Assembly: GCA_022771205.1 (NCBI GenBank)
Contig: JALFCF010000005.1
Location: forward strand, 26,399-90,398
Source: Mycoplasmatota bacterium
GTDB taxonomy: Bacteria; Bacillota_I; Bacilli_A; RF39; UBA660
Reading direction: 5' to 3'
DNA length: 64,000 nt
In this document: positions 9,845 through 37,176 of the stretch, piece by piece
Numbering within the stretch: the stretch's first letter is position 1
Layout of the letters: each line of letters begins with the position of its first letter
Program-made: the position numbers and the translations under genes
The notes under the pieces: model-generated
What the model saw: the letters and a program-made list of their open reading frames with translations, nothing else
The model's database searches: none
What the model was told of the DNA's origin: nothing

Positions 9845-10050
9845 AAAAAACATCCTTATCAACATAAGGACGAAATTTCGCGGTACCACCTTACTTCATA
9901 GCAAAAAACTATGCAGCTTTAAAGAGATAACGGTCTAACCCTACATACTTCAAACTAGTCAAGTTCATATATTACTTATATTTACTCTCACCATCCGTAA
10001 ACTCTCTAAAATAAGTAAATATATTACTACTACTAGTAATATGCCAACTG
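9845..10050 (-). promoter_or_regulatory. T-box leader, predicted Leu (specifier CUU)
   Basis: Minus strand AAGGTGGTACCGCG (9879-9892) followed by terminator ccttat..ataagga + T-run; Stem I-like GGATGGTGAGAGUAA and GAA-CUU-GAC; upstream of leuS operon. Confidence 0.9.
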
Positions 10051-27771: not shown

Positions 27772-27847
27772 TGGTGCCGATTAAAGGACTTGAACCTTCG
27801 ATCTTCGCATTACGAATGCGCTGCTCTACCAACTGAGCTAAATCGGC
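27772..27847 (-). tRNA. tRNA-Thr (anticodon CGU)
   Basis: Minus strand GCCGATTTAGCTCAGTTGGTAGAGCAGCGCATTCGTAATGCGAAGATCGAAGGTTCAAGTCCTTTAATCGGCACCA; anticodon loop TTCGTAA; CCA encoded. Confidence 0.96.
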
Positions 27848-35468: not shown

Positions 35469-36707
35469 ATGGCAAAAGAGTTCTACTTTGAAATTACTAA
35501 AAGAATACCAAATCAACTAGGAAGGGCCGGTATTATTCATACACCTCATGGAAATATTAAAACACCAGCCTTTATAGCAGTTGGTACAAAAGGAGAAGTA
35601 AAATTTTTAACACCAGAAGATTTAAAAAGTATAAATGCCCAAGCAATGCTAAGCAATGGTTACCACCTTCAAAATATAAAAGAAGAAATAGCAACAGCTG
35701 GTGGTTTAGCTAAATATTCTAAATGGAATGGACCAACAATCACAGATTCAGGGGGCTTTCAAGTAATGTCACTAGGATCAGGGCTAGGAAAAGTAGTAAG
35801 TATGGAAAGAGAAAAAGAAATCAAAAATACTGAAAAAAAGGACAGATTAGCCCATGTATCAGAAAACGGAGTAAATTTCTACGACCCTATTCTAGAAAAA
35901 GAAGATTTTATAGGTCCAGAAGAATCCATGCAAATTCAATGTAAAATCGGAGCAGATATACATATGGCATTTGATGAACTAACATCTCTAGCAGACGATT
36001 ACGAATACAATAAAGAAGCCCTAGCAAGAACAGAACGTTGGGCTTTACGAAGTTTAGAAGAACATAAAAAACATTGTAGAGATTTAGGATATTATCAAGC
36101 TCTATATGGCGTATTACAAGGTGGAAGATGGGAAGATTTAAGACGAAGCACAGCAAAAAAAATGGCACAAATGAAATTTGATGGCTATGGATTGGGTGGA
36201 GCATTTTTAAAAGAAGACTTAGGAAAAATTTTACAATGGTGTTGTGAAGAATTGCCAGAAGATAAACCTAGACACTTACTAGGGCTATCTCGACCTGATG
36301 ACATTTTAATAGGAATCAGTATGGGAGCAGATACGTTTGACTGTGTAGCCCCAACTAGAGAAGCAAGGCATGGAAGAATATATACTAAGACTGGTTATAT
36401 TAAACTATCAAAGTTTAAAAATGATAATACACCTCTAGATAAAAATTGTGACTGCCCGACATGTCAAGCTGGTTGGACTAGAAAAGAATTAATAGCATTA
36501 ATGAAATCAGAAAAAACAGAAGAAAGAATAAAATATTTTAACTTAGCTTCATTACACAATTTACGCTTTATTATAAGATTAACAGAAGAAGCAAGAGAAG
36601 CTATTTTAAATAACAAATTCGAAGAATACAAAAATAATTTTTTAAAGACATATTATCAAACAGAAACAAGCAAGTTGACAAATCAAAATAATTATGATAA
36701 AATGTAG
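35469..36707 (+). CDS. tgt: Queuine/archaeosine tRNA-ribosyltransferase family protein (Tgt-like, divergent)
   Basis: ITDSGGFQVMSLG, GVLQGGRWEDLRR, GADTFDCVAPTREARHG, Zn motif CDCPTC...H. Confidence 0.88.
   Translation: MAKEFYFEITKRIPNQLGRAGIIHTPHGNIKTPAFIAVGTKGEVKFLTPEDLKSINAQAMLSNGYHLQNIKEEIATAGGLAKYSKWNGPTITDSGGFQVMSLGSGLGKVVSMEREKEIKNTEKKDRLAHVSENGVNFYDPILEKEDFIGPEESMQIQCKIGADIHMAFDELTSLADDYEYNKEALARTERWALRSLEEHKKHCRDLGYYQALYGVLQGGRWEDLRRSTAKKMAQMKFDGYGLGGAFLKEDLGKILQWCCEELPEDKPRHLLGLSRPDDILIGISMGADTFDCVAPTREARHGRIYTKTGYIKLSKFKNDNTPLDKNCDCPTCQAGWTRKELIALMKSEKTEERIKYFNLASLHNLRFIIRLTEEAREAILNNKFEEYKNNFLKTYYQTETSKLTNQNNYDKM
36675..36703 (+). promoter_or_regulatory. Sigma-A promoter P1 at the 3' end of tgt, driving the thr leader
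   Basis: TTGACA (36675-36680), 17-nt spacer, TAAAAT (36698-36703). Confidence 0.75.
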
Positions 36708-36731
36708 ACACTTTTTGAAAGGGAGAATATT

Positions 36732-36809
36732 ATGAAAAACAATCAATTAACAACTACTACGACTACTACAAAATCAATTATTACTATTGATTGTTTTAGC
36801 ATTGTTTAA
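36732..36809 (+). CDS. Threonine-rich leader peptide MKNNQLTTTTTTTKSIITIDCFSIV
   Basis: SD AGGGAG at 36719-36724; 25 codons; seven consecutive Thr codons ACA ACT ACT ACG ACT ACT ACA; attenuator-like inverted repeats and terminator downstream. Confidence 0.85.
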   Translation: MKNNQLTTTTTTTKSIITIDCFSIV

Positions 36810-36843
36810 TAAATAATAAACATCAAAGTTTATTTAAAAAAAC

Positions 36844-36874
36844 AAGTCTATTACAATCAATGTAATAGACTTTT
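36844..36874 (+). terminator. Attenuator terminator (3:4 hairpin)
   Basis: aagtctattaca-atcaa-tgtaatagactt perfect 12-bp stem followed by TT. Confidence 0.8.
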
Positions 36875-36877
36875 AAT

Positions 36878-36906
36878 TTGTGCAAGATTAAAAAGAATGC
36901 TATACT
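36878..36906 (+). promoter_or_regulatory. Putative second promoter P2 for thrS T-box
   Basis: TTGTGC, 17-nt spacer, TATACT. Confidence 0.6.
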
Positions 36907-36954
36907 AAAAATGAAAAACTATAATATAGGACATGATTATTAAAAAACTATTTT

Positions 36955-37115
36955 AAAGAGAGTTATCAGACGGTGAAAGATAATAAATAGTTTTAATGAT
37001 TACTACCTATTATGTTGCCCTCGAAAGAGATTGCCCGAAAACATCGGTTATACAATTAAGTAAAAATAAGGATGGTACCGTCTTATAGACTCCTATGACG
37101 GTACCATTCTTTTTG
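36955..37115 (+). promoter_or_regulatory. T-box leader of thrS (predicted specifier ACU, Thr)
   Basis: Stem I-like agagagttatcagacggtgaaag...gattACTacc; T-box AAGGATGGTACCG; terminator gatggtaccgtc...gacggtaccattcttttt. Confidence 0.9.
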
Positions 37116-37128
37116 TTTTATAAAGGAG

Positions 37129-37176
37129 ATGATAAAATTGACGACCGAAACAGAAAATGGTACGAAACACTCCTAA
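37129..37176 (+). other. Mini-ORF between T-box terminator and thrS (MIKLTTETENGTKHS)
   Basis: ATG 37129 or in-frame TTG 37138 near SD AAAGGAG; four Thr codons; stop at 37174-37176. Confidence 0.4.

Follow-up and report, generated by a model that had tools for sequence, protein, structure and literature searches.

In the window (the whole stretch of 64,000 nucleotides analysed here), the region between tgt and the threonyl-tRNA synthetase gene thrS2 raises the question of whether a single gene can be governed by two Thr-sensing modules placed one after the other, a leader-peptide attenuator and a T-box. Our analysis points to a relay that senses starvation in several stages and controls an accessory threonyl-tRNA synthetase, a reading to which we assign a probability of about 0.82.

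Organization of the thrS2 locus

Direct reading of the sequence identified every element named by the first-pass annotation (P1, leader, T1, P2 and T-box) between tgt and thrS2. The order in the window is P1, leader ORF 1, T1, a weaker P2, the Thr T-box, uORF2 and thrS2. The combination of leader attenuator, T-box and uORF2 is shared by dozens of species in a group of uncultured Bacilli. The interval originally given, 36675-37115, is correct, and the system reaches on to uORF2 (37176) and thrS2 (37209). The features are the following.

35469-36707: tgt, stop at 36707
36675..36703 (+): P1, TTGACA-17-TAAAAT, TG-extended, inside the 3′ end of tgt, 11/12 match
36717..36725 (+): Shine-Dalgarno (SD) sequence of leader ORF 1, GAAAGGGAG, by direct reading, conserved in relatives
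36732..36809 (+): leader ORF 1, MKNNQLTTTTTTTKSIITIDCFSIV and a stop, 25 residues, with seven consecutive Thr codons
At the leader start: region 1′, AAACAATCAA, which can likewise pair with region 2
36772..36778 (+): region 1, AATCAAT, which can pair with region 2
36786..36799 (+): region 2, ATTGATTGTTTTAG, antiterminator 5′ strand, near invariant
36844..36880 (+): terminator T1, AAGTCTATTAC / GTAATAGACTT plus U-run, stem 36844-36872
36848..36861 (+): region 3, CTATTACAATCAAT, antiterminator 3′ strand, overlapping the terminator 5′ strand
36878..36906 (+): candidate P2, TTGTGC-17-TATACT, with TGC-extended −10, 8/12 hexamer positions
36912..37115 (+): Thr T-box, with stem I AGAGA and GGUG motifs, UGGU, antiterminator and terminator, conserved in relatives
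37122..37128 (+): SD of uORF2, AAAGGAG, by direct reading
37138..37176 (+): uORF2, (L/M)TTETENGTKHS and a stop, TTG start, 4 Thr codons
37209..38744 (+): thrS2, 511-aa threonyl-tRNA synthetase (TIGR00418, 523 bits)

The host genome (1.36 Mb, 8 contigs) encodes thrS2 as a second, short ThrRS and another, longer ThrRS elsewhere. The Pfam domains of thrS2 are PF00587 and PF03129 only (catalytic and anticodon), with no Pfam match to the tRNA_SAD (editing) domain, while the longer ThrRS of the genome has PF07973. Relatives of thrS2 with 61-66% identity were also found in Patescibacteria (Moranbacteria and others; L105-L116, L121), which hints at an old gene transfer.

Relatives of thrS2 were drawn from a genome contig collection, and their upstream regions were read for leader, T1 and T-box. 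The leader, its SD, P1, regions 1, 2, 3 and 4 and T1 recur at dozens of related thrS2 loci. Since the leader frame and the RNA regions are kept across these loci, the arrangement is not a product of chance.

The leader-peptide attenuator

P1 had been placed within the 3′ end of tgt, ahead of the leader peptide, and the sequence bears this out: TTGACA (36675-36680) and TAAAAT (36698-36703), the latter with TG before it, are separated by 17 nt. P1 is conserved in relatives: of 45 loci, 43 have a promoter that matches at least 9 of 12 positions ahead of the leader. The Thr run of leader ORF 1 is ACA, ACT, ACT, ACG, ACT, ACT, ACA, followed later by one more ACT, so that codon reading agrees with the earlier statement that the leader reads ACA, ACU and ACG. 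Homologous leaders with an SD were found at dozens of loci (e.g. MLNNQLTTTTYTTTLKSISYIDCFSIA). Their SD, frame and Thr run are conserved, and the Thr codons are kept while the adjoining sequence changes; in a clade of ten members that lacks the T-box, the leader contains no more than 2-3 Thr codons.

Region 3 has two alternative partners, region 2 or region 4. Across 39 aligned sequences, helix 1:2 is 97.4% paired and helix 2:3 is 95.5% paired, whereas 98.6% of cells are paired in the T1 helix 3:4. Compensatory changes in T1 affect 6 of 11 pairs (25 cells), a level that none of 500 shuffles attained. Helix 2:3 is near invariant with only 2 compensatory cells, a count not clearly above shuffles in a helix too invariant for covariation to decide. 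Region 2, with its complementarity to region 3, is kept whether it is read as IDCFS or the leader stops before or within it (ending in ...KSTKI or ...KSILLY). Its conservation even past the leader stop indicates that it is kept as RNA. T1 was the one hairpin found on both strands of the scanned kilobase, where shuffles predict 0.1 terminator-like sites, and it places an intrinsic terminator (3:4) 3′ of the ORF, as in known attenuators.

Folding was then computed with the ribosome modelled as a 30-nt block. For the window, T1 had an equilibrium probability of 0.94 when no ribosome was present; the value was 0.14 to 0.00 when a ribosome sat on Thr codons 1 to 5 and 1.00 when it had reached the stop. 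Many relatives favoured T1 at equilibrium despite a ribosome stall, and kinetics must therefore be invoked there. When the nascent RNA was ended at region 3, 2:3 could form at 38 of 47 loci with a stalled ribosome and at no locus with a ribosome at the stop; the second result is nearly built in, given that the stop overlaps or adjoins region 2. In the nascent RNA of the window, 2:3 forms without a ribosome too, and in most members of the ten-member T-box-less clade a stall leaves 2:3 unfreed.

The first-pass annotation had left room for T1 acting solely as the tgt terminator. This is ruled out, because tgt is upstream of thrS2 in no relative; the nearest upstream ORF is on the opposite strand at 11 relative loci, and the attenuator travels with thrS2.

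The T-box and the second promoter

The T-box, previously described as a complete Thr T-box, was confirmed as such by its motifs and by a full-length match (1-219) to RF00230 at 36912-37097 (49.1 bits, E 1e-9), a score below the Rfam gathering score of 93, as are those of four other T-box leaders of this genome. Its specifier, ACU at 37002-37004, is cognate to thrS2. The terminator (37070-37109 plus U-run) competes with the antiterminator, and the UGGU within these competing structures complements the ACCA end of tRNA-Thr. The tRNA-Thr genes found have anticodons UGU, CGU and GGU, and all end in ACCA. Among relatives the specifier is ACU, once ACC (L124). One locus, L085, has an AAU (Asn) specifier instead of ACU before thrS2, with attenuator and uORF2 intact. 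Only a single T-box was found in the thrS2 leader, which distinguishes it from the thrZ-type tandem of at least two.

A genome-wide search with RF00230 found 14 T-boxes. None of the other 13, on inspection, had a small ORF enriched for its cognate amino acid, which rules out such an ORF as a general habit of this genome. Another T-box of the window, at 9863-10043 (−) with 99.6 bits, precedes a 117-aa predicted membrane protein (L007).

The proposal that each module has its own promoter held in part. The sequence of P2 is present in the window; it is weak by its hexamers, and as an extended −10 (TGCTATACT) it is a plausible promoter. A TG-extended −10 (mostly TGATATAAT) was found between T1 and the T-box at 15 other loci of the 30 that have both modules. 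P2 is not universal, however: at 9 of the 30 loci, only 13 to 25 nt separate T1 from the first conserved motif of the T-box. A gap of at most 25 nt leaves no room for P2, and transcripts from P1 must pass both terminators there. From these sequences, a second promoter probably feeds the T-box alone in the window and in about half of the two-module relatives; P2 thus seems a plausible promoter for some lineages, while others lack it.

A third Thr-rich element, uORF2

Between the T-box and thrS2 our analysis identified a third Thr-rich element, uORF2, which is absent from the first-pass annotation. In the window, an in-frame ATG at 37129 is a possible alternative start. uORF2 is present in 48 loci, including loci without T-box, and was not found in L077 or in L069, a decayed locus with few Thr codons and no T-box. 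In relatives it reads MTETETDTIFSLKSK and similar (MTETETDT...), nearly always behind AAGGAG and with its start at a constant distance. Thr codons make up 20.8% of the uORF2 frame vs 3.9% and 0.7% of the other frames, the start being taken as the SD-preceded one with most Thr codons, a mild bias, yet its position is nearly the same throughout. The stop lies from −36 to +20 relative to the thrS2 start, mostly from −14 to −36. At many T-box-group loci, the SD of uORF2 can pair with CUCC in the 3′ part of uORF2 (37122-37170 in the window), in a helix of as many as 9 uninterrupted pairs (as in L064 and L074).

Codon choice in the sensor ORFs differs from that in the genes. In the T-box group, ACG and ACC account for 1 and 6 of 330 Thr codons in thrS2, 62 and 9 of 86 in uORF2, and 40 and 6 of 166 in leader 1; in the ten-member clade, ACC makes up 40/57 in uORF2, 14/24 in the leader and 0/111 in the thrS2 genes; such counts are linked by descent, and Fisher values for them are only indicative. 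The leader and uORF2 are strongly enriched in Thr codons that are nearly absent from thrS2. According to selective-charging theory, leaders favour the codons at which translation responds most strongly to changes in supply (PMC1183508). Loss of tRNA-Thr(CGU) was considered as a cause of the ACC use in the T-box-less clade and rejected, as the gene is present in the genomes of that clade. In the window, the gene for tRNA-Thr(CGU), the reader of the ACG codons of the sensor ORFs, is located at 27775-27847 (−), about 9 kb from thrS2.

uORF2 is an SD-preceded ORF rich in cognate codons between a T-box terminator and the gene, which is the arrangement of B. subtilis rtpA. By analogy with this precedent, the natural reading is that uORF2 may serve as a translational sensor. 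Alternatively, the attenuator and the T-box work but uORF2 is no sensor; it would then be an ORF for coupling, or one that arises by chance in a purine-rich spacer beside the thrS2 ribosome site. That its stop position is not fixed and that it is largely an ACGGAA repeat would fit this explanation, and the SD-CUCC pairing may be the element under selection. Against it, the Thr excess is confined to one frame and employs all four Thr codons; one group has ACG and another ACC, two codons that thrS2 hardly uses; and the SD and start are conserved in an ORF that is kept at loci without T-box. We put this alternative at somewhat less than an even chance.

A lysine version of the attenuator

Whole genomes belonging to the same family and the same order were scanned with the attenuator model: 13 of 246 and 16 of 386 genomes had one match each, most of them before thrS2. 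At six loci (L166, L167, L175, L176, L186 and L189), a homologous attenuator precedes a class I lysyl-tRNA synthetase gene (TIGR00467, 384 bits). The Lys-type leader, MLNNQIKKSIKKNKKSI..IGCFSISSK, has Lys codons where the Thr run stood and shares the rest of the leader frame. At these loci helix 2:3 forms 14 of 14 pairs, and the terminator stem, of different sequence, 13 of 13. AAG makes up 19/40 of the Lys codons in the leaders vs 14/230 in the genes, counts to which the same dependence by descent applies. No T-box was seen between the Lys-type attenuator and the class I LysRS gene.

A short SD-preceded ORF with a run of cognate codons, as in ribosome-mediated attenuators, is therefore found in two forms, Thr before ThrRS and Lys before LysRS, and the sensor codons follow the downstream synthetase. 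This codon switch is the strongest evidence that the leader would act as an amino-acid sensor. Together with the conservation of the leader, the Lys version rules out a chance low-complexity ORF. It also bears on the possibility that the leader is no threonine-specific sensor but responds to translation arrest in general, whether from ribosome-acting antibiotics or from poor charging of whatever tRNA. Any ribosome parked by the leader start would free region 2, and a ribosome-mediated attenuator before a drug transporter is known in B. subtilis (PMC4191407). But the codon run changes with the synthetase while the rest of the leader is common to both versions, and we consider a general-arrest sensor improbable.

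A pattern scan of 390 family genomes returned thrS2 and lysS loci, a few chance matches and one unclear candidate. L181, L184, L188/L198 and L197 were rejected as chance matches inside genes or plain palindromes. The unclear candidate, L191 (at about position 359, reverse-complemented), has the leader MQNNRNSYKQLVITIKSMNNWLF and a small terminator before an mnmA-like tRNA thiolase gene. It is a possible relative of the attenuator, found in one genome only, and may be due to chance.

Serial order and loss of modules

The attenuator terminator T1 and the T-box occur in series at 30 loci, the window included, and the order P1-leader-(P2)-T-box-thrS, for which a comparative check had been suggested, is conserved among them. 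The attenuator without T-box was found in L064, L074, L081, L082, L084 and the ten-member clade, while L054 and L059 keep the T-box and have a degenerate leader/T1 region. L069, the decayed locus, lacks uORF2 as well. On the ThrRS tree, T-box presence needs 7 changes, at least 3 of which are forced by well-supported branches. Each of the two transcriptional modules, attenuator and T-box, can be lost alone.

It is highly improbable that the T-box (with P2 where present) alone controls thrS2 and that the leader and T1 are a relic or end upstream transcription, as L054 and L059 and the TG-extended −10 at 15 of 30 loci might suggest, because tgt is not upstream in relatives and 11 loci have an opposite-strand upstream ORF, the leader has its own conserved promoter and SD, its Thr codons are kept amid changing neighbours while T1 covaries, the leader is necessarily transcribed through at the nine loci without room for P2, several loci have the attenuator and no T-box, and a Lys-type copy stands before LysRS.

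Proposed mechanism

We infer the dynamics of the starvation relay from its anatomy and conservation, the covariation of T1, the apparent mutual exclusivity of its pairings in sequence and folding, and the codons matched to the synthetase. In stage 1, transcription would start from P1 and the leader would be translated. With enough Thr-tRNA, the ribosome would get to the stop at region 2 and T1 would form. A ribosome stalled in the Thr run would cover the leader start, 2:3 would pair, and the polymerase would read on. In stage 2, the T-box would sense uncharged tRNA-Thr(GGU) through ACU and UGGU, and the second terminator would be opened. The two stages would be strictly in series at the loci without room for P2. 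In stage 3, which is less certain, a ribosome stalled in uORF2 would leave the thrS2 start free, as proposed for rtpA.

A more tentative extension, which we rate a little below even odds, is a three-tier sensor, in which the leader terminator, the T-box terminator and a uORF2 translation switch would act as tiers on different tRNA-Thr isoacceptors, with an attenuator frame interchangeable between Thr/ThrRS and Lys/LysRS. The ACU of the T-box would correspond to tRNA-Thr(GGU), the ACG of uORF2 to tRNA-Thr(CGU)/(UGU), and the leader to a mixture. In the T-box-less clade, both ORFs rely mainly on ACC, the codon class of the isoacceptor that the T-box would have watched.

Relation to known systems

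In most descriptions, a leader-peptide attenuator and a T-box are alternatives, one taking the place of the other. The closest known system is B. subtilis rtpA (anti-TRAP), where a T-box is combined with a Trp leader peptide and tRNA-dependent ribosome stalling acts on translation (Chen and Yanofsky 2003, 2004, as cited in PMC11255114). As far as that account describes it, rtpA likewise places one gene under a terminator read by tRNA and a leader peptide read by the ribosome, both for a single amino acid, and its order of T-box then leader peptide resembles that of T-box then uORF2 here. It differs in responding to Trp and in having a regulator, not a synthetase, as its target. To our knowledge, rtpA has no leader-peptide terminator ahead of its T-box. 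The first-pass annotation was aware of no described attenuator plus T-box tandem of this kind. This has to be narrowed, since rtpA, as summarised there, does pair a T-box with leader stalling; for a leader-peptide terminator in series with and before a T-box, no description was found in the open-access literature.

Tandem T-boxes are known before thrS and thrZ in Bacillota (PMC12452182, PMC2494555), and ThrS was the only synthetase under tandem T-boxes in a 2025 survey (PMC12452182). They are likewise serial Thr-responsive terminators before a threonyl-tRNA synthetase, but every stage is a T-box, whereas the first stage here would be ribosome-read. Predicted His leaders replace T-boxes for hisZ and a hisS paralog in bacilli (2010 survey, PMC2965389), and His leaders of his operons were reported in some Firmicutes, including Erysipelotrichales, in 2022 (PMC9413887). 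These are likewise cases of leader-peptide attenuation of a synthetase-type paralog in Bacillota. However, they concern another amino acid and stand in for a T-box, while the thrS2 leader is in series with one.

Attenuators of the trp/his/pheST type are known from Proteobacteria and Actinobacteria, and a 2005 survey found no Firmicutes synthetase under classical attenuation (PMC1262725). They share with thrS2 a leader ORF with cognate codons and, as predicted for thrS2, the alternative helices 1:2, 2:3 and 3:4. The thrS2 system differs in that many members continue into a T-box, region 1′ shares sequence with the leader start, and Thr and Lys versions have one frame in common. The Bacillus cereus lysK gene, which encodes a class I LysRS, has a T-box (PMC2916919). 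It is similarly an accessory class I LysRS under tRNA-charging control, but the class I LysRS of the present family has a leader-peptide attenuator, with no T-box seen.

The series stacking and the single losses across many species make the logic of stacking comparable with respect to threshold sharpness, leak and isoacceptor coverage. How a codon swap evolves could readily be tested on this attenuator frame, which exists with Thr and with Lys codons, and selective isoacceptor charging theory (PMC1183508) gains clean data from sensor ORFs so strongly enriched in codons that the genes hardly use. Our results suggest that threonine starvation is gauged two or three times at a single gene, each time in a different way.
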